Assembly (NCBI GenBank): GCA_001600095.1
Contig: BCIX01000001.1
Location: 2,480,001-2,544,000, forward strand
Length of the DNA stretch: 64,000 nt
Reading direction: 5' to 3'
From: Bullera alba
Lineage: Eukaryota; Basidiomycota; Tremellomycetes; Tremellales; Bulleraceae
A program made the translations under genes and the position numbers. Shown in pieces: positions 17,713 through 63,980 of the stretch. The notes beneath the pieces were generated by a model that was not told the DNA's origin, did not search any database, and saw only the letters and a list, made by a program, of their open reading frames with translations. The first letter of the stretch is position 1. Each line of letters begins with the position of its first letter.

Positions 17713-17732
17713 GGTTCGTCCTGGTTCGTCAC
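17713..17732. repeat. 10-base tandem duplication (GGTTCGTC at lag 10)
   Basis: GGTTCGTCCT is followed directly by GGTTCGTCAC, an 8-base exact match at spacing 10. Confidence 0.75.
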
Positions 17733-24035: not shown

Positions 24036-24760
24036 ACATAGACTCGCAATTTGCTCAGCCTCGCGCCATCTTCGCAGAGGCAAGGCATATCTTTGCACCA
24101 CGATCACGACTCATCACCTCTTTTGTGCTTATATACATACATTCAACCACCATCTCCGCGGCCTGCCACCGTCTTGACTTACAGAGACGAGTCTTGCATA
24201 TACCCATAATCAAATAGCCCATGCGCATGCACCAGGGATCCTAGACACGCACGGTGTTTAGTAGACGAGGTTACCAAAGTGCCACATTGTCAAATACCGA
24301 TTTCGGGCTTTTCGGACTTTGACCCCGCAGCGAAATTCGAGTGCCACAGTGGGAATGTCCGCGCGGGTGAGCGAGTGAGTGGGCGGGGAGGGTGTGAGGG
24401 AGGGGGGAGGTAGCCGGGGGGGGGAATGGACGGGCGAGCAGCGAGCAGTAGTGACATCTCTAGCACAAGTCCTAGTCGACGAGCAACAACCCCCGTCTAT
24501 CAGACAAAACCCCTTTAGCTCTACTCTAGTAGATCAAACAAAGGTGAGTACTGGACGTCATCAACACGGGAGAAGGACAAGGAGAAGGCATGGATTGGAC
24601 TGGAATTTAATTTGGGAGGACATTGGCTGATCTTTTTACCATCCTTCTCTGTATTCTACCGACAACTCAATTGTCGACAACTACTCGTCGTACATCCCAT
24701 CACAACTCGCTCTCGAACCGACTCGCAGACTGCAAAGCAGCAAACAGAGCAACCGCAACA
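24036..24760. other. Intergenic: CPA2 3' UTR and STM1 promoter/leader
   Basis: Contains a G-rich tract (annotated separately) and a probable 5' UTR intron of STM1 from GTGAGT at 24543 to CGCAG near 24730. No other gene signal. Confidence 0.5.
24381..24424 (+). promoter_or_regulatory. G-quadruplex-prone G tract upstream of STM1
   Basis: G runs lie at 24381-83, 24385-88, 24390-92, 24398-400, 24402-407 and 24416-424, with loops of 1, 1, 5, 1 and 8 bases. The first four runs alone satisfy the usual G3+N1-7 rule. The tract is on the coding strand, about 340-380 bases upstream of the STM1 ATG. Confidence 0.7.
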
Positions 24761-26295
24761 ATGTCGGTTGTCTCAAGGAACCCTTTCGACGCTCTTGGTG
24801 GTAAGTGATGTTCGCAATGTCGAAGGAGTTTCGCAGGCTGGAATTAGGAAACCGGAGTACTCTGAGATGGATGCAGAGAGCGCGGACAAACAAGGGGAGG
24901 GTTATGAAGGCTATGAAGAGAGCACAAACTGGGGTGTCATCGCGAACCAGACGAAAGGAACCATGATCTCGACCGGAGCTCAGTGTTGACGACGTACTCT
25001 CAGAGGACGGAGACTCTCCAGCCCCCGTCAAAGCCCCCGCCGCCGCTACCACCGGCGCCGCTGCCAAGAAGGCCACTGAGACCGTCCAGCGAGACGTCCC
25101 AGGATCTGGCCGAGGTGGACGAGGCGGACGAGGCGGACGAGGCGGTGACCGAGGATCGAGGCCATCGCGAGGAACCCCTAGGGAGGACCGAGGCCCAAGG
25201 CACACTGCCCAGGAGCCCGCCAGCGGCGTCGCTGAGGGCTTCGAGGACCCAGCCGGTTTCGACGGAGAGCGAGTCGGTGAGTGGAATATGCGCTATAGTG
25301 TAAATGGTATCGTCAGCCTAACAGTTTCTTAGCTCCCCCCAAGAAGGCCCACCACGGACCAGACAGGCACACCAAGAACCCCAACAACCGAGGTGGCTAC
25401 ACCTCCGGCGGCCACTCGTCCCGAGGATCCGGTGCCGTCCGAGGCGCTAAGACCCCCGCCTTCGGCGGTGAGAGGAGACAGTTCGAGCGACGAAGCGGTG
25501 GTTACCAGGACAGCCAGAAGAAGGTCGAGTCCGGATGGGGTGCCAACGAGGGTTCCGCCGAGCTGAGCGGTGAGTTAATTGTATCATAGTGCCGTCTGTA
25601 CCTTTGCTGACCCATTCACAGCCGAGGTCGAGGGCGAGAAGGACGCCGCCGACGAGGAGACCGCTCCTCAAACCCCAGCTGCTGAGGGTGATGGAGGATG
25701 GGGCGCTTCTGACGAGCCAGCCGCCGCTGCCACCGGAGGATGGGGCACTGACGAGCCAACCGCCGCTGCCACCGGCTTCGGTGACGATGCCGAGGAGACC
25801 CCAGAGGAGCCAGAGGAGGTCCAGAAATCGTACGAGGAGTACCTCGCCGAGAAGGCCGCCGCCGCTCTCGAGTTCGGCAAGAAGGAGGTCCGACAGGTCT
25901 CCGAGGCTGCCCTCGAGGGCACCGCCTTTGTCCGAGAGGGCATTGTCGACTTCTTCTCTGGCAAAGTGAGCAGATCGTTTCCCCTCGTGTGATGCAGGCC
26001 AAAGAGCTAACAACTCCCGTAGGAGAAGACCACCACCAAGGCTGCCAAGCCCAAGAAGGAGAAAGTCTTCATCGAGGTCGACGGACAATTCGCTCGACCA
26101 GCTTCCGACCGACCAACTCGAGGTGGAGACCGAGGACGTGGCGGACGAGGTGGTGGTCGAGGTGGAGACCGAGGTGGACGAGGACGAGGTGCCCCCAGAG
26201 GTGCTCGAGGTGGATTCGGCGGCGCCAACAACCGAGGTGGTGCCCAGGGCCTCAACAGCACCGACGAGAAAGCCTTCCCCGCCTTAGGAGCTTAA
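24761..26295 (+). CDS. STM1: Stm1/SERBP1-family ribosome-binding protein
   Basis: Ribosome-associated protein of the Stm1/HABP4/SERBP1 family. In yeast Stm1 occupies the mRNA channel of resting 80S ribosomes and preserves them in stationary phase, and it also binds quadruplex nucleic acids. The N-terminus MSVVSRNPFDALG matches the NPFDLLG opening of Stm1. Arg/Gly repeats follow (SGRGGRGGRGGRGGDRG), then a basic block ending KKVESGWG, a conserved Stm1 signature. Next come an acidic Ala/Glu/Trp-rich stretch with GGWG repeats, KSYEEYLAEKA (like the LSLQDYL motif), a basic segment and a second RGG region before NSTDEKAFPALGA. The start is ATG 24761-24763. The first intron (about 24790-25006) is unusually long for this genome; three shorter introns follow. 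Confidence 0.9.
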
Positions 26296-32605: not shown

Positions 32606-33574
32606 GTCGCTCTAGGTCTATCCGGTCAGACTGTCTTCTTCCGCAGAGACGAAAGCGTTGATACTTGCAACTCACCAGCGGGGTATACTATAGAAGATCA
32701 TACCGAGGCGCAGATGGTGTTTCAGTCCCCTAGCTGCCGTTTCGTGGCTCCCTTCCTCTCTTTCTACACTTCTAGGTGATGTGGACACTGATGTCGACGG
32801 ACATGAGGAAATGCGATACTTGACCGTCCCGAGTTACGCGACTGTGACTTTTGAGGAGACCTCCACCTCGACCGCAGCGGAATCAAATCCACGTGACTTG
32901 TGGTTGCCCTCCCCAGCTGTGAGCTCCTCGGCCATCGGCGCTGGCTAATTCTTCACCTTGCTCGTCACACCACTATCACAGGAGTACCCGGCTTCCTTAC
33001 TGTATGCAGGTAGTGGGTACACCCAGCCGGACGTCGAGCAAGATACAGCATGGCATCTCATGGCATCTCCTTGGCTCATGGAGTCATGGCGCCGGGGAAA
33101 ACAAAGCAGCTTGGAGGACCCGGACTTTGCCGACACGATGGAAGTCAAGATCAAGAGCTGCTCTGAGACTGAGACTCATGCCAAAAGCAGACTCTGACTC
33201 TATACGACCGAGGCAGGTCGAGCAGCTATCAAGCTTGCTATGAACGATGCGTGCGAGTGCGCAGTTGCCGCCGACGCCGCTCGAGACTCGAGGCAATGCG
33301 AGGATGCTCGGCAGTCTCGGGGACTAATTGTCGTGCCGGTCGCCGAAGTCCGAAAATAAACGAGCTGGCAGAAGAACGAATCGCAATCGACTTATCTGAT
33401 AGCGACAAACAGGGAGTGCTCGACTGACTCAGCTTTGACTTTTGCATCCCATCCCATTGCACCTCATCGCATAAGTTCCACTGGAGCAGGTTCTGTAAGC
33501 AGGTCCGCTAGCTTGCTCCGGTCTACCAAGCATCCCATCAAGAACATCACTATTCGAACAGAGACTACACAGAC
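32606..33574. promoter_or_regulatory. Divergent intergenic region between the ATRIP-like gene and APD1
   Basis: About 970 bases separate the two starts. No coding signal. A perfect 10-base duplication (annotated separately) and several imperfect short repeats around 33180-33310 are present. Confidence 0.5.
33049..33068. repeat. Perfect 10-base tandem duplication (CATGGCATCT x2)
   Basis: Two identical decamers CATGGCATCT lie directly side by side in the divergent promoter region. Confidence 0.85.
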
Positions 33575-39246: not shown

Positions 39247-41752
39247 ATGTCGAGTCTATCCTGGAGGCAGATCGTGCTCAGGAAGCAAGATGAGCGAGAG
39301 GCTCGGGTCGTCGAGATGGAGGAAGAGCTCGGTCTTCTCTCTGATCACCCCGAGGATGCGGTCTTCCTTTCAGCCAGGTAAGCCATCAGCTTAACTTCTT
39401 GCTACAGTCTCACACTCTTATTCAGACCAGAAAAGATCGTTGCCAACCTGAAGTCCATGGAGGACGGCTGGACAGTGGAAAGAGTGATGATCGCATTCGT
39501 GAGCTGATCGTCCAGCAGACCTCCACAGAGTGAGCTGATCTGTGCGCAAGATCAGAGCAGCCTGTGCTGCTCACAGGTCGACAAACTGCTTGACAGAGGG
39601 TATGTGAAGGAAGTCAGGAGAGAAGCGATAGCTCACAACTCGGTAGTGTTCTTCAAAGAAGCGTTGGATGAGGCCAGGTTGAAGGACAAGGAACTCCGCT
39701 CGACTGGTCGTGCCGAGGGCGCTTTCTGGGGTCTGCCATCAAGCTTCAAGGGTACGTATGATTTGGACTACTCGGGAGTGAGCGGTCGAGGCTGATACGG
39801 TCTACAGATTCCTTCAATATCCTTGGGACGGACAACACTGTGGGGTGTACCAGGTATCTGACCCTTCTGATATGACCGACAGAAGGGGTGCTGACCAATC
39901 AGATACTGCTACGACCCGACAACAAAGCTCGAGGATGAGCATGGGGTAAGGTCTGCTGAGGTGTTCAAACCACTGACTCAGGTCTAGATCGTCAAACTGT
40001 ACCGCCAAGCTGGAGGTATACCATTCTGCAAGACCAACATACCACAGGTGATTTCTCCCGCAGATCACTGGACACCGAACGACTCTAGCTGACGAGATGA
40101 CAGACCTTACTGGCTTTCGAAAGCAAGAATCCTCTTTGGGGAGCTTCATCGCAGCCTGAGTTCCCGGACCGAACGCCTGGCGGCAGTTCAGGGGGAGAAG
40201 CGGCGTTGATCAAGCTGCGAGGCACACCATTGGGTTGGGGCTCAGACAGTGAGTATCCCGTTTTCAGTCATGTTCCTCGCTTACTCGAGCAGTCGGCGGA
40301 TCGTTGCGAATCCCCGCACATTACTGTGGGATATACGCCTTGAAGCCAGTCAAGGGAAGATGGCCGTCTCTCGGCAGTCGCGAGAATAAGAAAGGGTTCG
40401 AGACCATCAAGGTGAGTGGTCTGAGATACCTCTGCGAGACGTCAGAGTCTGACAGCTCAGGTATCTTGTGGACCCATGGCGAGATCGGTTGACGACCTCA
40501 TCTTCGCCTCGAAGACAATCACAGAACTCACTCACGCCAGGGACAGAGGAATTGATGGGGAGACACTTTTGCCCATTCCATGGAGAGAGATCAAGTTACC
40601 ATCCAGGCTCAGAGTTGGATATTTCATCGAGACGGGCGGTGTCAAGGTGAGATCGGTCACACCGACCACGAGGACCGTGCTCATATAGCTGCAGACCAGT
40701 CCTGCATGTTCTAGGGCTGTACAAGAGACGGTGGATAAATTGCGTCAAGCGGGGCACGAGGTGGTGCCGTACAAGATGCCGGATCGTGCGTCATTCTGCT
40801 CATATCCGTCCGGACCAGTAGCTGATCGCGATTATAGCCATTGAAGCTTTGAAAGTGAGGATTGATATGTCGATGGCTGTGAAGACATTTGCTGACCCGC
40901 TGCGCTTAGATATTCGTCGCGTCAATATCGGCAGATGGGCATGTCACGATGAAACATTCGGTCGGGAAGGACCCTTGGGAACCGGCACTACAGCTGGTAA
41001 GTACCACATGACCCGCTCGAGATATCCAGTCTCTCACTCCGTTGTCAAGGTCACGATAGGCTCCAGTCTGCCAAGGTTCCTACATGCACTACTCGTTTGG
41101 GTATTGGTGTATCTACTGAAAGATACAATCTTTGCGGCTGTATTCTGTGAGTCTACAAGGCTATGCCGGGCTAATGCACTTCTTTAGCTGTCACCAATGC
41201 CCGTCCGGTCCGAGAGTACTGCGAGTGGGCATATCGCCGCAATATATACGCTCAGAAGTTCAACAAAGCTGTGAGTGCTAAAGGGTTCATGAGACCAAAG
41301 CGCTGATATGGGATCAGGCGTGGGAGGAGGAGAAGCTTGACATGGTTATATGCCCCGTACAGTCTGTACCGTCATTACAACACGGTCGAACCAAGTTCCT
41401 CTCTCCATTAGCGTACGCCTCAACCACGGCTTGTTACGTCGTACTGACGATCGATATCGATAGCATCGCGACCATGCTCTTCAACGTGGCCGACTCGACA
41501 GTCGGCGTGGTTCCCGTCACAAAGGTCGATCGAGAGAAGGACGCGCTGCCGATCGATTTCTTGAAGGAGTCAGAGGGCTCCTGGATACTGGAGAAGCGAG
41601 TGTACAAGGGTTCCGACCCCGCTTACAACGCTGAGAAGATGCACGGGCTGTCGGTCGGTGTTCAACTGGTCGGAAGACCATGGGAGGAGGAAAAGGTGCT
41701 TGCGATGATGAAGGTGGTGGATGATGCGGTCAACTCGGAATCGAGCACCTGA
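39247..41752 (+). CDS. Amidase-signature hydrolase (FAAH/acetamidase-like)
   Basis: Serine amidase of the amidase-signature family, hydrolysing a carboxylic or fatty-acid amide. The Ser-cisSer-Lys triad is visible in joined exons: Lys in GIPFCKTNIPQ, cis-Ser in PGGSSGGEAALI, and the nucleophile Ser in GSDIGGSLRIPAHYCGIYALKP. The N-terminal region has MSSLSWRQIVLRKQDERE, and the C-terminal region has MHGLSVGVQLVGRPWEEEKVL, both usual. A hydrophobic segment around 41080-41145 (FLHALLVWVLVYLLKD) is like the membrane-cap region of fatty-acid amide hydrolases and suggests lipid amides. More than ten short introns, about 590 residues. The start is ATG 39247-39249; the end is SESST-TGA. Substrate cannot be told from sequence. 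Confidence 0.87.
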
Positions 41753-41856
41753 TAATGGGCGTCATGAGTGATAGATATTCAGTACATGCTGGTCATGGCT
41801 GCTCGCAGCCACGCCAATGTGAACTACATCACTGTGATACAAGCATACACACCAGT

Positions 41857-42935
41857 CTATTTGCGCTGCAGCCTCTTCCACTCTTCTTCGATGACTCGGA
41901 CGAAATCAGATGCTGAATGTCCGTCCTGCTCGACTGTCAGCAATGTATGCTTTTCTACGACTCGAGCTCGCTCCAACTTACGTCGCAGCCAATCCATGCC
42001 CCGCCGTCGATAACGCATGTCCTGTTGGTGGACCCCCTACCGGCTGTACTGTCGATAACGATGGTGCAGGACTTCGTGACGCTTGTTTGCTCTGTACGCG
42101 CGACATTCTCCAAGAGCAAACCCCTGGCCTCTTTCCCAAGATGATTCGTCTTCTTGGCCTTCTGTCCATCATCATTCTTCGCCTTCTTGCCCTGTATGCA
42201 CTGCCCCACACCAGAGCCCCACCAATCTAGCTTTGTGGCCTCGACGCAACGGCGGGTGAGTTCGACGTCTCCGATTTTCCCGGGAAACGGAGATTCAAAG
42301 TTGAGACACGCCAGCGCGGCGTACCACTGTGCCGGATCCAGGTGGTTCACCAAGCACAGTTCGTGGGCGTTCCCGATACATTCCAAGGAGCCATGCTTGC
42401 AGGTCACGCCCAAGGGGTCTGAATTGTTCAAACTGCACGTGCTGTCAGGTACAAGGGTCATGGCAATATTGTGATATGTGATTTTAGGTGATCCAGACAT
42501 CGGTGGCGTACCCGGATGTACCAAGCAGTACCAAGCAGACTCACTGTGCTACGATTTGCAGGCTGAGGTCGATTTTATCGCTGACGCCGGAAGTGTGCAA
42601 GACCTGGGATTCGAATATCAGGACACAGCCCTACCGAGGTACCTCACTCGTCGGGACTCACGTCTTCGAATACTGTCTCACACGTTCTCTAAAAGGCGCT
42701 GTCAGCCCAAAAGTCTCTCGTCCTCAGAGTCTGTGCTTACAGCGTCCGGGCATCGAGACATGACATAAAGAGCTACCGGAACCTTGGAGTCACGTGCTTT
42801 GTGGATAGTGAGAGCGGTATCGTCTACAAAGCCAAAGGCCTCCTGGGCGGGCGGCGCGTTCGTGGGTGAGGCAAGCGTGTGAAGCTGGTGAGAGAGCGCG
42901 CTCAGAGCCAATAACCCGGATGTGATGACTCGCAT
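41857..42935 (-). CDS. GILT-family thiol reductase, secreted or vacuolar
   Basis: Member of the gamma-interferon-inducible lysosomal thiol reductase family. It begins with a signal peptide (MRVITSGLLALSALSHQLHTLA), then VPVALYVMSRCPDA, which after splicing (donor at 42740, acceptor at 42689) continues RTCETVFED. The GILT signature C-X-HG-X2-EC-X2-N-X4-C is intact (CKHGSLECIGNAHELC). The C-terminus, joined across an intron near 41900-41960, reads DGHSASDFVRVIEEEWKRLQRK-TAG. Exon 2 is only nine residues. The first redox cysteine sits in C-P-D-A-R-T-C rather than the C-X-X-C of animal GILT, so reductase chemistry may differ. Internal splice sites near 42440-42555 are inferred. Confidence 0.85.
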
Positions 42936-45900
42936 GATCTCTAGCCCGGCCGACGGTAAGGAGCCTGGGAACGCCAGTATTGAAAGACTGTCGATACACG
43001 AGTATAGCTAGGCGAAGTCGAGATGTAGAGTAGTTAGTACGAGTAGCTTGAGCTAGGCGCTAGCCAATTCAGGTTTCTAGTTGTTGCTCTGGTCGAGACG
43101 TGATCGAGACTCGACAGAGCTCGGAGAACGCCGAAGAGCTGCGGATATACGATGACGTCATACCGCTCATCCAATGTTCGCCTCTTCGAGGAGCTTGCGA
43201 GGAGCTGGCCCGAGCTGCAGTAACAGGCAGTAACTTACCAGGACCGTACTTGCGCAGCAACTACTGCTGATCTGGAGCTCTGGAGAGTGGAGACTACTTA
43301 CTGGAGGCAGTCTCCCTGATATGGACGTGGGCCATAGGCGGGCTGTTCGGACTTCGGAAAGCTGGGTGAACGCTCACGGGTCGGGTGCTGCCGGGTGCTT
43401 ACGATAGCGCTCTCCAGTGCCTACCCCGTGCAGGATGTACGTACGTCCGTCGAGGTCGTCGAGGTACGCCGAAGTTCTGAACTGTAACTACGCTACATAC
43501 TGTACGCATAATTCTTCTCGGCCCGTTTACACTGTGATACTTGTACAGCTCTATGCAGCTGGGAACGCCCCGGCGGCCGAGATGCCGACCGGCGTGCACC
43601 GGCGCCGTGGGTGTCTCATCAGTCGATTCCATACTGAAAGGCGAGAGCCTGGTGAGCACTGGGCACTGAAACTCCGAGTCTGCCGGTGAGTTGTGACGTT
43701 GTGACACTACTGTTGTAACGCCCGAGTGGGGCATCTTCGGGCATCTTGCACCAAAGTTACTAAATATCAATGAGGTACACTCGGGTACACTCGTGTCCTG
43801 ATTCTCGGGAGCCTACCGAGACAGGCACTCGGATGCTGCGTGGGCACAGCAGGAGAAGGATTGGTGCCATGCATTCATGTGTAATCGATATGTCGGACAC
43901 GTTATCATCGGAGACCGAATCGATCCTGGCAGATCCTGGCACACCGATGACTGTAGGCTATAAATCTAACAGAGTCCTGACTAGTCTAAGTTAATTTTTG
44001 AAGTTAAGTACGAGTAGTTGAATGAATGTGGTCTGGGCTGGTCTGGGTCCTGGGACTCTAAGCAGATCGACTGAGCTGCGGAGTTTTGCCAGATCTTACG
44101 TGGGGGCCAACCTTACGGCCGGGTCAAGTACCGCCAAGATCTGAGCGACAACGCGCATTGTGGCTTTGCGGCTCATTGCATCGGATTGCATCCGATGCAC
44201 CAGGTCTCCCTTGCCTGCCTTTGCTTCGGACGGCGTCAGAAGACGCCAGCACCTGCCAGCACGCCCCCTCGGAGCCCTTCGGACGGCCAAGCCTCGTCCG
44301 TCACACCTTTGGCTTGGTAAGCGAAGCAAAGTCGGAAAGAGGGTTGGCGTGAACTTCGAGAGTACATCTGCCATAGCAGATGACTACAGGCGCTGACTCT
44401 CGATGGTTGAGGTTCAACGTCAAGAGCACGTACGATCGATCCCGTGAAGGCTGCTGCGAGCTGCTGCGAGACATAAGGCGGTGACGGCAGGTGACACCCC
44501 TAGGGAATCAAGGTACGAGTGACATCCCAGACGCCCGAATAAGTACGAGGAACTGCAGAGGGGTAATTCACTAGTGTGTGCCCGTGAGTGTAACCAGGTG
44601 TAACAGTGCAGCCAGGTGTAACAGCGGTGTAGCAGTGGTGTAGCCCTTTGTGACTTCGCTAAGCGATCAGCCCCATGATGCACTATGATGCATTATGCCC
44701 TATGATGCCTCGTGCTCTCTCATGTCGATCATTTCGTAAGCCCGACGTGTTTGATGTTTAATCAGCTTATGGCTGAATGTCTAGGGAAGGTGCAGGAATC
44801 ATTTGTGGCGTGACGGGCTGTAACGGGGCGCGTTACAAGTGCATCCGAGTAGATCAGAGTAGATCAGAGTCTATCCGAGTGATGCAACCCTACTACTGGT
44901 CCCTACTTTCTGCTTGCTCGTCGATACTACTCCATGGATGCAAATATTCCTGAATCTGAGCCTCCTGAACAAACCCGCGATCCTCCATTATCCCCTAGTA
45001 TCCCTCTTGAACATGGTAAGCGTCTCTGTAGCGATTACGGTCTATTACGGTTGAAGCAGGTTGAAGCCTGTTGAAGCGGCTATAGAAGCGGGGTAGAGCA
45101 GGGTCGGACCTGGTCGGACCTGATTGTGCCTAGTAGTGTTTCGGCGAAACAGGGCGAAACAAGCATGCTTTTGTTCTTTCAGGGCAGGCATGACATCCCG
45201 AGATCGCGGAACGGCGAAAATTGCCATTAAGAGAAGATCGTTCCCAGCTGTCGTTTTCGCCGGGTCAGTCCAGGTCACTCTGCCACTGCGCCCCCGATAG
45301 CCACTACTCCGCCGATGCTTGGCTCCAACAAGCTCCTGCTCTCTCTCTGTACTTACTCAGCACCGCTCAGGACTCCCTCCTCGCGCGCCCTAGTTCGGAC
45401 CATCGGCCTCCTGTCTGTCCGATGAGCTCATGGTGCCTCACAGGGAGAACCCTCAAACATGGTCCAGCTCGAACCTGCTCGAACCGTCGTTTTGGATCAG
45501 CTCAGCGCTCAGGACTCAATCCTGACCAAGCTCACCATACCTCACCCTGTCTTTCCCTGCTCTGCTCTGCCTCTCCTCTCCTCTATTGCAGCCGGGCTTA
45601 GATGGTGGCGGGCGCTGACTGATGCTGACTGATGCTGACTGATGCTGAGTGCTGAGTGATCGCTGGTGATCGCACCGTACGTCCGGGTGCCCATCTGCGC
45701 CTTTCTGCGCCCATCTCGATCCTCCTCTCTCTCGAGGGAACTCCAGGGTCACATGGCAGTACCGTAATTGGGGGTTTGAGCTAGAGCGCATTAAGCATGA
45801 ACAAGGTTATAGCCACCGTCCGCCAGCAGGAGCCATATGGTGTTATCGGAAGACGAGGTGATAGTCATCGTTGCCGTGGCAGAGAGCTCATCAGAGACAT

Positions 45901-46964
45901 CCTGCGGCTCTGTGCGGAAAGAGACACTCCGCAAACGATCCGAGATGATATATCGAGTATCCTGGCCAAGGAAGGCAGAAGCTATATCTATATACTATGG
46001 TCCCTCGACTCGATCCTCCTGCTCTTCGTACTGTTGCATCGCTCTCTCGCCAACTTTTGCTTCACAGATCGACGAAAACACCCGCATCAACGGTGAGTGC
46101 TGTCGGGGTTTTGCTCTCTTTCCGCCCGAGTGTTGGCCGGTCGTCGCCGAACGGGTGTGGCCGAGGAGGAGTAGGTGAGATACACCAACGTATTGGACGA
46201 ACAAAAGGCGAGATGCGAAACAGGAACGAAGATGCACCATCACCGCCCTCAAATCCTCCCCTGATCTCCATCACATGTACACTCGTCTCATCCGAAAGCC
46301 TTTTGTCGTCGTTGTCGATGCGATTCCAGATTAGCGCATCATCTGTCACCCGAGTCTGAGCCACCGGGCAGGAACACGGCTGATGGGCAATTAGCTTGCC
46401 TCGGCACCCTCGACTCTACATCATAGACGCATAGACTGTCCGACGGACACCCTCGCCTTGCTTGATCTTGACATACCATCTTCGTTCGCCACCTATCCCT
46501 TGCTCTCTTCGCACGTCGTGCCGAACAGCGCACATGGAGAGATCCTCGCTCGCGTTGAGTCTAGAATAGAAGTCTGAAAAGAAGCTCGAGAAGGACAACT
46601 AGACAGCAAACCGGAAATTTAGCGCCATAGACGTTGCGGGGTTGGGCGACTGTATCTACACTCGGCCTGGGCGATTGCAATCAGATCAACACATTCACCC
46701 ATCAACAGTCTCAACAACAAAAGACTCCTGGTGATCCCTTTGACCTCAAGGTAACCTCGTTCTCGACGGCGACTCACGGCAAAGCGAGAGACGAGAACAG
46801 CAGCGTTTCAGCGAACGACGAGGGATACAAAGCACCAACGACTTTGCCTCACATCGGCTCTTCTCCCCCCTCCTGATCCGCCACCTCTCGATTGTCTTCC
46901 TATTGTATCGTTTCAGACAATAGTCAAGTGCGACCGCTACCACCTCTCGACTCAACTGCGCACA
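42936..46964. other. Gene desert of about 4 kb upstream of the HMG-box gene
   Basis: No protein that I recognise is encoded here. Short open frames (for example 45797-46096 and 45837-46178 on the plus strand, 46062-46364 on the minus strand) overlap one another and have no family motifs. The part from 43217 to about 45711 is dominated by 10-base duplications (separate entry). The last 900 bases probably hold the promoter and a leader for the HMG-box gene, with a possible leader intron beginning at the GTGAGTGCTG near 46094 and CAA-rich leader sequence near 46700. Confidence 0.6.
43217..45711. repeat. Island of unrelated short duplications spaced by 10 bases
   Basis: Over 20 places show a word repeated at a spacing of exactly 10. 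Perfect or near-perfect decamers: GGTACACTCG at 43774 and 43784; GATCCTGGCA at 43922 and 43932; CTGCTGCGAG at 44451 and 44461; AGATCAGAGT at 44851 and 44861; GGTCGGACCT at 45102 and 45112; GCTGACTGAT three times from 45614. Shorter matches at the same spacing: GCAGTAAC 43217, CGGGTGCT 43382, GGGCATCTT 43729, TGGTCTGGG 44029, ATTGCATC 44175, GCCAGCAC 44245, ATGATGCA 44675, GGCGAAACA 45143, GCTCGAACC 45467, GTGATCGC 45656, TCTGCGCC 45694. Around 45031-45090 six successive decamers are related in turn. A few spacings of 8, 9 or 11 also occur. The repeated words have no common consensus. Confidence 0.85.
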
Positions 46965-49900
46965 ATGTCAATCGTGTCAACCTCACCGATCAGGACGAAT
47001 CCCAATCGTGGCAGTCCCGCTCGGCCCCGGGCTACCGCTCGATCATTTCCCAAGTCCGCCTTACCACTCAAGATACCGGACGTTCCTGCAGCACCATGGT
47101 CGGTCAATGACAAGCTGACTCCATCGCCATCACCCCTTGGCCCCCATTCGCCCTCCCAGTATCTCCCGGCTCCGACGCCGCCTTACACCGGCACCGACGA
47201 GATCTCGGGTTACCCCTACCATCAGTCTCCGCTCGGAGCGCCATGGCAGCAACTTGGTCCCAGCGATCTCATGCCGCCTCCAACATTCTCTCCCTCGGGC
47301 AACTACTCTTCTCCAGTCGGTTACAACATATCCTCTCCAGCTATCTCCGGTCTTTCCCTCTCAATGTCGCCTTCCGGCTACGCTATGAACCAGGACTCGT
47401 ACGGTCTCTATCCCGCATCTTATCCAAGTAGCGTGAGTCTATCTGGCCGGATGGACTCCCACCTCTCGAATTGCAGCTCTCCCATAAAGTCCGAAGCCGC
47501 CACCTACATGACGGGAGACGCCTCGACCTCATACGCCTCTGGGTTCGACACGGACGGAGGCGAGCTCTACTGGACAGATTTCGCCGAGTACACAGAGCCC
47601 GATGCTATAGGACAGAGTGGTATGGATATCGCCGATGCCGAGTTCACCGAAACCAAGAAGGCGGATGTGGTGAAGACGCCTCGACCACCAAACGCCTGGA
47701 TCCTGTATCGATCAGACCAACTCAAAGCCATTGGCTCCGGTCAGCTCATTCCTGGTCTGGAGGCTGTTCAAGCGGAGATCGCTGCCTCTTCATCCGCTTC
47801 AGCTAGCTCGGGTCCGGAGAAAGAGGACAAGATTGGCCCAGTCAAGAAGAAGGAGAAGGCAAAGAAGGGCGCCAAGGAGCCGACAGAAGGCATGTTGGCA
47901 TTAGGACGAGGTAAAACTGGTCGTGGTATCCCTCAAGCCGATATCTCCAAGATGATCAGTATGCTCTGGAAGCGAGAGTCTCCGGTTGTGCGAGCAGAGT
48001 ACGAGAGACGAAGCGAGGAGAAGAAACAAGAAGTGAGTGTCGAATTCCATCTTTCCAATCTGAAACGACAGCTCGAAAACATTTCGATTTCGACTGGACG
48101 GTTTCGTAACTTTCAAAACCATATGCTTAATCCATGTCGGCGGCTATATGCTTATCTATGACGACAGCATCGACGACTCTATCCCGGCTACAAGTTTCAG
48201 CCGCAGCGCAAGGCCGACAAGATCAAGATGCGAGAGGAGAAGGAGCGAGAGAGGGAGGCTGCTAAGCGAGAGAAGGCTCTACTGAGGAGTGGAGGTACAA
48301 GTCGTGAGTATAGCCGGTCCAATCCGTTGGAGCGTGACTAACATGCTCTATCTTCCTCTCCCTTCCTCTCCGCGCCTCCCCTCCTCGAACGTCCGATCCA
48401 TTATGCTTCACCCAATAGGTGGAGGTCGAAGAGTGCGTACACGTACCAGGGTCTCACCAAGCACTCCATACACCGCCCCAGGTACCGGGGAGAGTAGGGC
48501 CATGGGTCGATCTCTCTCCTATGGAGGGGCCTCTGGAACCGAGAGCTCTCTCACTAGTGGTCCTTCCTACAGCACGGACTCTAGGGAACAAGGCAAGTCT
48601 CTTGCGAAAGTAGATCACTTGGCTATAACTCACCCACTCGTAGCCATGTCCAGTCGAACCTTCCCGTCCACACCCTCACACTCCAGTCCCAGCCTGGCTG
48701 GAAACGCTGAGGACCCCCGATTTCGATCATACCCCTTTCCGATGCCGCCAACCTCCTTACCCTCCATGCGACGAGAGGACCATGCGGCGTTGTTCACAGA
48801 CTCGTTTGCGATCCCACCAGGAACGTCCGCTCGCTCCAGCTCGACTATTCCCCCTGATCCCAGTGCGCATGGGGAACCATTGCGCGCTCACGCTGCCGGA
48901 TCTGCCGGATTGGAGGCTCGAGAGTCGAACAGCTCCAACAGCACTTTCGACAGATCTTCTTCTGCCGCCTCCCAACCGGACCATGCCCAAGTAAACGACG
49001 GTGCTTCCAATGGTGCAGGTCGAGTGGTGCGCAATGGTTTCCCCGCCAGCTCCTCGGACACTGGTATTGCTGCGACTCCAGCTCTCATGAGCGTTGATCG
49101 AGGAGAGGTCAACGTCGGCAATGCCGACCGCACGAGACAAGGCGAGTCGGCACCTCCACACGGTGGCCAGAGTCTCGGTGAAGAGGCCGAGACCGAGAGT
49201 GGAGAGATCCTGAACCCTCGTCCAGTTCACGCGAGACGCGCTTCCAGCCTCGTCGAAGAGTGGGGTGAGATCACCAAGTCGGCCAGTGATACCGCCGGAG
49301 ACTTCAACCCCGCCAAGCAGCCTGCCCAAAGTGGACCTCCTGCACCAGCATCTGTACCACCTCTCAATCTCGGCAATAGGTCTCAGCGACAAGTCCGATT
49401 CAAACCTGTCGGTCCACCCAGTGAGTACCTGTAACGAGGTTAGCGCGACGAATGCATACCGGCTGACACGTACCTCTCTTTCAGCTCCCATCGCTACTTC
49501 GTTCGGCAACATCGAGATTCCGGACGGCGGACGAACTCCCACCCAGATGTTCTATCCTGTCATGCCGACAACAGAGGGTGATGTACCCTTACGAGGAGCC
49601 TTCCAGCCAGAGCACCAAGCGTATTGGTACAACCCTGCCGACGCCATCGTGTACTACATGCCCACCTACACCACTGTGCACACCGACAATGGTGATATGT
49701 TGATACCCGCCGCGCCATTCGGACAGCCAAGCAGCCATCGTCCAGCTCAGAGCGACGGAGAACACACCCAGAACTTACCGATGGTCCCACCTCGAGGTCC
49801 TGGTGAGATGGACGTGTCCGCCGAGCAAGCGAATCTCGACCAATTTGGCAGCCAATACATTGACCAAGCGTACTGGGTGACCGACGACAATGGCCAGGTC

Positions 49901-63960: not shown

Positions 63961-63980
63961 CCAGCGGCCTCCAGCGGCTA
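63961..63980. repeat. 10-base tandem duplication (CCAGCGGC at lag 10)
   Basis: CCAGCGGCCT is followed directly by CCAGCGGCTA near the right edge of the window, another isolated copy of the 10-base signature. Confidence 0.8.

Follow-up and report, generated by a model that had tools for sequence, protein, structure and literature searches.

An intergenic island at positions 43217 to 45711 of a 64,000-nucleotide stretch of the Bullera alba genome (C1:2480001-2544000, hereafter the window, in a 19.4-Mb assembly of seven contigs, C1 to C7) is most probably an accumulation of excision footprints left by a cut-and-paste DNA transposon which duplicates 8 bp of its target and whose departure leaves a 2-bp remnant of its end. 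The typical unit of the island is a duplicated 8-mer with a fixed dinucleotide between the copies, AG or CT at near-equal frequency, and no 10-base duplication. The 8-mers follow a palindromic target preference, both spacers can be found on one 8-mer, and the units occur throughout the genome and are nearly absent from predicted coding DNA. From these features we infer the former presence of the element, the origin of the two spacer bases in its ends, the growth of arrays through successive visits, and the sequence of cutting and repair steps.

A ten-base step in noncoding DNA

A sequence-only reading of the window had noted many words repeating at a spacing of 10 bases in about 2.5 kb, and counting bore this out. 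Within the island, 20 runs of at least 8 bases and 25 runs of at least 6 bases recur at lag 10, compared to 0.03 and 0.57 expected from order-1 Markov sequences, and at word length 8 the lags 9 and 11 gave one run each. The ten-base step is real and not due to chance. The remaining 61.5 kb of the window contain nine further lag-10 runs of at least 8 bases.

The step is not restricted to the window. A first count in 20 systematically placed 10-kb stretches (200 kb) gave the highest number of runs at lag 10 (45), with 19 at lag 9 and 16 at lag 11. The analysis was extended to a 324-kb sample comprising the window, 25 systematic 10-kb stretches and one stretch chosen for its hAT gene, and coding and noncoding DNA were separated by a home-made 7-state model which misses some genes, such as the GILT-like one beside the island, and splits others. 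In the noncoding part lag 10 accounted for 87 runs, compared to 13 for lag 9 and 25 for lag 11, the opposite of the flat lag spectrum that the sequence-only reading had named as refuting its proposal. Predicted coding DNA held four lag-10 runs in 123 kb, one of them within a probable intron of the hAT gene. This near-absence would be expected if selection removes 10-bp frameshifts, and target choice may contribute. An excess at lag 10 was also seen at other sampled places, e.g., L016, L020, L022 and L024, and in two stretches picked from a list of genome-wide pattern matches (see below), L036 (1.2 kb, 12 runs) and L037 (301 bp, seven runs), neither of which had any run at lags 9 or 11.

Duplicated 8-mers around AG or CT

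Among the lag-10 pairs of exactly 8 bases in the 324 kb, the two intervening bases were AG or CT in 34 of 47, where about six would be expected by chance (binomial p 8e-20); in noncoding DNA the share was 32 of 43. No comparable preferred spacer was found at other word lengths from 6 to 11 with gaps of 1 to 4, and words of 9, 10 and 11 bases were without a spacer-specific excess. Runs with an AG/CT phase numbered 34, 15, 8 and 4 at lengths of 8, 9, 10 and 11, falling off approximately as predicted for 8 bp plus chance extension. The 59 sites with one readable AG/CT phase, on which the spacer ratio and the target-preference statistics are based, divide into 30 with AG and 29 with CT, a ratio of about 1:1. 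As CT is AG read on the opposite strand, one event in either orientation accounts for both spacers. In the two stretches taken from the pattern list, AG or CT separated the copies in ten of 11 exact-8 runs, and still in six of seven after removal of the four pattern hits, the one exception sharing bases with a pattern hit of different phase.

The island's words had been said to share no consensus. They do share a common form, N8-(AG/CT)-N8, which is readable in 14 of the 20 runs, runs longer than 8 having several chances to fit, and in five of the nine exact-8 runs, with about 1.2 expected. Four more island runs (43380, 43727, 45655 and 45693) take the same form, apart from one mismatch, after a shift of the frame by one or two bases. 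The few spacings of 9 and 11 bases, which had been taken to fit target-site duplications, lack this signature: in the noncoding sample, the three-base spacers of lag-11 repeats started with AG or CT in two of 15 cases, about the chance level, and at lag 9 the spacer of an exact 8-mer is one base, too short for the signature.

When the 8-mers are read on the strand that sets the spacer to AG, the favoured form is G-Y-Y-n-n-R-R-C. At least five of the six informative positions of this consensus, which was derived from and scored on the same 59 sites, agree in 31% of them, the corresponding shares being 5% for random 8-mers from noncoding DNA and 7% for 71 control repeats taken at other lags. A matrix of the left halves scored 0.23 on the reverse-complemented right halves, whereas random noncoding sets had a mean of -0.42 with a standard deviation of 0.14 and none of 3000 reached as high; on right halves in direct orientation the score was -0.73. 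This half-against-half test, like the identity count given below, is independent of how the consensus was derived. The target preference is symmetric about its centre, as expected of a two-subunit transposase.

The footprints of the window, its island and the neighbouring genes are as follows (positions in the window; strand given where assigned).

43217..45711, no strand: footprint island, in the gap between the GILT-like gene and the HMG-box gene; longest stop-to-stop open reading frame 137 aa
43217..43234, plus: GCAGTAAC-AG-GCAGTAAC, exact 8-mer pair
43923..43940, plus: ATCCTGGC-AG-ATCCTGGC, 8-mer pair with AG spacer
44030..44047, minus: GGTCTGGG-CT-GGTCTGGG, minus strand reads AG
44245..44262, minus: GCCAGCAC-CT-GCCAGCAC, exact run of 8
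44451..44470, no strand: CTGCTGCG-AG-CTGCTGCG or GCTGCGAG-CT-GCTGCGAG, 11-base run of ambiguous phase
44675..44692, minus: ATGATGCA-CT-ATGATGCA, exact run of 8
44843..44880, no strand: array ATCCGAGT-AG-ATCAGAGT-AG-ATCAGAGT-CT-ATCCGAGT, both spacers on one target
45034..45051, minus: ATTACGGT-CT-ATTACGGT, exact run of 8
45050..45077, no strand: array GTTGAAGC-AG-GTTGAAGC-CT-GTTGAAGC, identical 8-mer with AG, then CT
45102..45119, minus: GGTCGGAC-CT-GGTCGGAC, 8-mer pair with CT spacer
45143..45160, plus: GGCGAAAC-AG-GGCGAAAC, 8-mer pair with AG spacer
45467..45484, minus: GCTCGAAC-CT-GCTCGAAC, 8-mer pair, also a genome-wide pattern match
45617..45648, minus: multi-copy array, e.g., GATGCTGA-CT-GATGCTGA-CT-GATGCTGA, within a 25-base lag-10 run of ambiguous phase
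17713..17730, minus: lone footprint GGTTCGTC-CT-GGTTCGTC, outside the island
33049..33066, minus: lone pair CATGGCAT-CT-CATGGCAT, outside the island, 11-base run
42519..42536, plus: TACCAAGC-AG-TACCAAGC, overlapping the GILT-like open frame, 11-base run
63961..63978, minus: lone footprint CCAGCGGC-CT-CCAGCGGC, outside the island
41955..42548, minus: left neighbour, partial GILT-like thiol reductase in an open frame (PF03227, E 1.4e-9)
46755..48161, plus: right neighbour, partial HMG box in an open frame (PF00505, E 2.2e-8)

The arrays combine both spacers on a single word. In addition to the two mixed arrays of the island, L037 contains GCTTAGAC-CT-GCTTAGAC-AG-GCTTAGAC-CT-GCTTAGAC, in which CT, AG and CT follow in series. 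Merely copying a 10-base unit does not produce an array whose spacer changes from AG to CT between successive copies; repeated insertion and excision at one and the same 8-mer would do so, and many sites look as if they had been hit more than once.

To follow the units through the assembly, the pattern GYYNNRRC-AG-GYYNNRRC was searched without demanding that the two 8-mers be equal, and the reversed pattern served as control. There were 279 matches (134 and 145) and 96 control matches (53 and 43). Among the first 100 of the 279, which are the matches listed and all fall within C1:102789-4411620, the two 8-mers were identical in 66, where 0.4 would be expected at a chance of 1 in 256, and differed by one base in a further 18, with four expected. 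After merging, these 84 matches with no or one mismatch make up 68 loci, among which nine neighbour pairs lie within 2 kb, where two would be expected. Exact AG/CT pairs were present in sampled stretches of C1, C2, C3, C4, C5 and C7 and absent from the two C6 stretches.

The number of footprints was estimated in two ways, both of which depend on few or clustered sites: the 49 AG/CT-phase sites in the 25 systematic stretches extrapolate to about 3,800 recognisable footprints genome-wide, and the 183 surplus pattern matches, scaled up from the 4 of 90 exact windows in which the full pattern is present, point to about 4,100. Thus, the genome may hold some 4,000 recognisable footprints, gathered mainly in intergenic islands. 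Footprint density may vary between chromosome regions, as 100 of the 279 pattern matches come from the initial 4.4 Mb of C1, or 23% of the genome. C1 itself, a contig of 8.0 Mb, resembles the giant chromosomes that passages of PMC11185503 report from chromosome fusion in Kwoniella. A conserved protein of the window has eight best-scoring named relatives at 68-72% identity, from Papiliotrema, Naematelia, three Kwoniella, two further Tremellales and Cryptotrichosporon of the sister order, and its closest outside relative reaches 75%; this comparison places the host probably in Tremellales and gives Kwoniella no preference over other members.

Footprints also differ in density by gene context, as far as a crude gene model and densities dominated by a few islands indicate. 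Of the 75 merged exact footprints in the sample, 52 fell into predicted intervals of 300 bp or more that separate coding segments. Divergent gaps (42 kb) accounted for 28 of these (0.67/kb), tandem gaps (75 kb) for 23 (0.30/kb) and convergent gaps (31 kb) for one (0.03/kb). The island's own gap is divergent, with the GILT-like frame on the minus and the HMG-box frame on the plus strand; as the model took 41748-46939 to be entirely noncoding and missed the GILT-like gene, the island was tallied as a tandem gap. No RNA families were found in the window, and self-BLAST of 264 kb recovered as repeat families only one short tandem pair at 25693-25775.

Probable excision footprints and rival explanations

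The sequence-only reading had suggested that the pairs are target-site duplications remaining after loss of a mobile element. This idea gives the best explanation, with the modification that the duplication comprises 8 bp and that the other two bases are a constant AG/CT remnant, so that a 10-bp duplication did not stand. On landing, the transposase would make cuts 8 bp apart in the two strands of a target of loosely palindromic form (G-Y-Y-n-n-R-R-C), which would yield an 8-bp duplication flanking the element. On leaving, one strand would be cut at the element end and the other 2 nt inside, and two element bases would stay on each flank. If the element ends are inverted repeats, both 2-nt overhangs carry the same letters; they could be joined overlapping and mismatched, and mismatch repair retaining one strand would then give AG or CT equally often and typically exactly 2 bp. 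Each visit would thereby add 10 bp, and the target, now present twice, could be hit anew, giving rise to arrays of the type N8-AG-N8-CT-N8 and to islands where insertions are tolerated. Overhangs reading AG would pair as tandem G-A mismatches, which are stable, and this would favour element ends of the form 5'-AG...CT-3', a point on which the four-nucleotide spacers AGCT and CTAG did not discriminate.

Several results weigh against excision footprints as the source. The 314 kb scanned, which is less than 2% of the genome, yielded no element that combines inverted ends with an 8-bp duplication; the best candidate (window position 24172, length 6796, terminal match 10 of 12) has the ends TAC/AAC and does not fit. 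Profile searches of the genome, which gave scores for the best candidates only, revealed no fitting transposase, with the limit that four of the families searched gave no match in control genomes either. The signal is patchy, eight of the 25 systematic stretches being without any lag-10 run, and within the island AG or CT occurs in only the five of nine exact-8 runs mentioned above. The symmetry of the target exists only in the average preference, half complementarity at single sites being 1.20 compared to 1.14 after shuffling (standard deviation 0.11). Finally, four-nucleotide spacers would be expected if both overhangs could stay, and AGCT, with five occurrences at up to one mismatch, was no more frequent than other 4-mers. 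At L024 7574-7609, CCTCTTGT-AGCT occurs three times over beside GCCTCTTG-CT pairs, possibly a footprint retaining both element ends.

The element is therefore extinct here, too diverged, of another family than those searched, or present in few copies in the remaining 98% of the genome. A single hAT element was recognised, at C1:1280504-1285107 (L029 3004-7607), with the terminal inverted repeat TAGGGATGT, a perfect 8-bp duplication GTGGGTAG, subterminal repeats of TGATTGTGATTG and an open frame of 727 aa that includes a hAT C-terminal domain. The best-scoring relative of its protein is 35% identical over 77% of the query, and weaker ones occur in Rhizophagus, Tilletia, Tetrapyrgos and others. 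No further copies were found in the genome by DNA, protein or end pattern, save one lone 12-mer on C3. A footprint, CCCTTTGC-CT-CCCTTTGC, lies inside the element at L029 6227, in an apparent intron.

That this hAT element or its kin made the footprints by ordinary hairpin excision appears unlikely. It is the sole hAT element found, its ends look intact, hAT elements make 8-bp duplications, and one mobile copy could leave many scars without copies accumulating. However, the spacer predicted from hairpins was found in none of the 43 noncoding pairs, the element's ends, TAGGG...CCCTA, neither begin nor end with AG or CT, and the T at position 2 and A at position 7 that mark hAT targets are weak in the 59 sites (15/59 and 18/59). 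In addition, the hAT footprints described in passages of PMC5873905 and PMC4561436 are short deletions or palindromes of flanking bases and not pieces of the element. A 10-bp duplication with hairpin-complemented edges was likewise rejected, its predicted spacer occurring in only two of 43 pairs.

The same anatomy could arise without thousands of lost elements if a nuclease or an abortive transposase made 8-nt staggered breaks which were filled in and joined with a 2-nt addition, no element ever being inserted, and this would agree with the failure to find an element in the 314 kb scanned. The constant AG/CT, equal on both strands, is hard to obtain without a template or an element end, and we consider this origin quite improbable.

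Another rival is replication slippage, or a different repair process, that proceeds by a fixed 10-bp step and has some sequence preference; a fixed step of one helical turn had also been considered in the sequence-only reading. The step is sharply 10, and among the 16 ten-base links of the matches listed those with the same spacer exceed those with opposite spacers by 11 to five, four of the five with identical 8-mers (no significant departure from equality, p 0.21); secondary slippage could account for a few homogeneous arrays, e.g., C1:2815760-2815807, and some same-spacer arrays may have grown in this way later. As the primary process, a fixed step is contradicted by run lengths centred on 8 and not on 10 (34/15/8/4), by a spacer that is fixed while the 8-mer is free, and by the alternation of AG and CT inside arrays of one 8-mer, leaving it only a very slight chance. 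The same three features rule out a plain 10-bp duplication and a minisatellite.

A single degenerate minisatellite, or paired binding sites held one helical turn apart by selection, can practically be dismissed: the concentration in divergent gaps would suit a regulatory role, but the 66 identical pairs among the matches listed comprise 41 distinct 8-mers and no common word, and the exact pairs are spread over sampled stretches of six contigs.

Excision footprints remain the preferred explanation, and as such they are already known; what appears unusual is that the scars form islands while resident elements are almost lacking. An 8-bp duplication with a constant 2-bp, Tc1-like remnant was not found described in the titles, abstract openings and passages of the literature searched, which is no proof of its absence from print. 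There is a fair chance that the element belongs to an undescribed group. Tentatively, and with less assurance than the footprints themselves, a group can be envisaged that would combine an 8-bp palindromic target with a Tc1-like 2-nt staggered excision and would persist almost without resident copies, writing 10 bp with each move. It could have built intergenic DNA over long periods by perhaps 4,000 recognisable insertions, preferring divergent gaps and its own earlier scars. If so, islands would grow without a repeat family visible to repeat-finding programs. The footprints suggest that a transposon may shape a genome in ways that repeat annotation misses.

Footprints are usually studied singly at known elements, whereas here they can be read without knowing the element, and by themselves they show the length and symmetry of its target and the probable offset of its cuts. 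Counting N8-XY-N8 words over every spacer XY would be a simple test for lost or nomadic transposons in any genome. Should the sites vary from strain to strain, divergent genes would acquire 10-bp insertions between them, a direct route to regulatory change.

Comparison with known transposons

The sequence-only reading had named Mutator-like elements, which make duplications of 9 to 11 bp, as potential makers; here the duplication is 8 bp plus a 2-bp remnant, and words of 9, 10 and 11 bases have no spacer-specific excess. Passages of PMC5225508 describe excision of Muta1 as mostly precise when 8- or 9-bp duplications are present. Apart from the hAT element, the only other trace in the families searched is a MULE-like transposase fragment of 75 aa (31.5 bits) at C1:2060496 (L028 ~1438-1662), and no inverted ends were found in the 3.1 kb surrounding it. 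Plavaka and the Mutator DNA-binding domain gave no match in the genome, in searches that also gave none in the control genomes.

KDZ elements resemble the putative element in their target duplication of about 8 bp: according to passages of PMC12810828, KDZ1 makes 8-bp and KDZ2 and KDZ3 make 4-8-bp duplications in the related genus Cryptococcus, where they are active. The KDZ domain had no match in the genome, nor did this search yield any in the control genomes. Two Kyakuja families from Laccaria have 7-bp duplications and the ends CA..TG (passages of PMC12730594), and such ends would not yield AG/CT.

The likeness to P elements lies in the target. P elements duplicate 8 bp at a palindromic target with the consensus GTCCGGAC, which is compatible with GYYnnRRC, and leave a far longer end remnant than the 2 bp found here. 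The P-type transposase PF21787 had no match in the genome, the search being without match in the control genomes as well. The hAT elements, among them Ac/Ds, Hermes and the resident copy, share the 8-bp target duplication and differ in their target signature nTnnnnAn, which the 8-mers do not match, and in scars that derive from the flanks via hairpins, whereas the spacers matched the complement of the bordering bases in none of the noncoding pairs.

In their shape the footprints are like those of Tc1/mariner and Stowaway excision. The Tc1/mariner transposase domain DDE_3 (PF13358) had no match in the genome in a search that was positive in three control genomes. Tc1 footprints occur as CA and TG, two reverse-complement outcomes like the AG and CT found here. 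Passages of PMC4561436 describe that mariner and Stowaway excision keeps the target duplications together with a short region of the element end, and passages of PMC4344528 that Mos1 cuts one strand 3 bases inside its end. A duplication kept around a short constant piece is common to both, and the constant AG/CT is compatible with a footprint made of the end of a putative element. The target sets them apart: the duplication is TA in Tc1/mariner, whereas here it is 8 bp long and free in sequence apart from a weak preference for palindromes.

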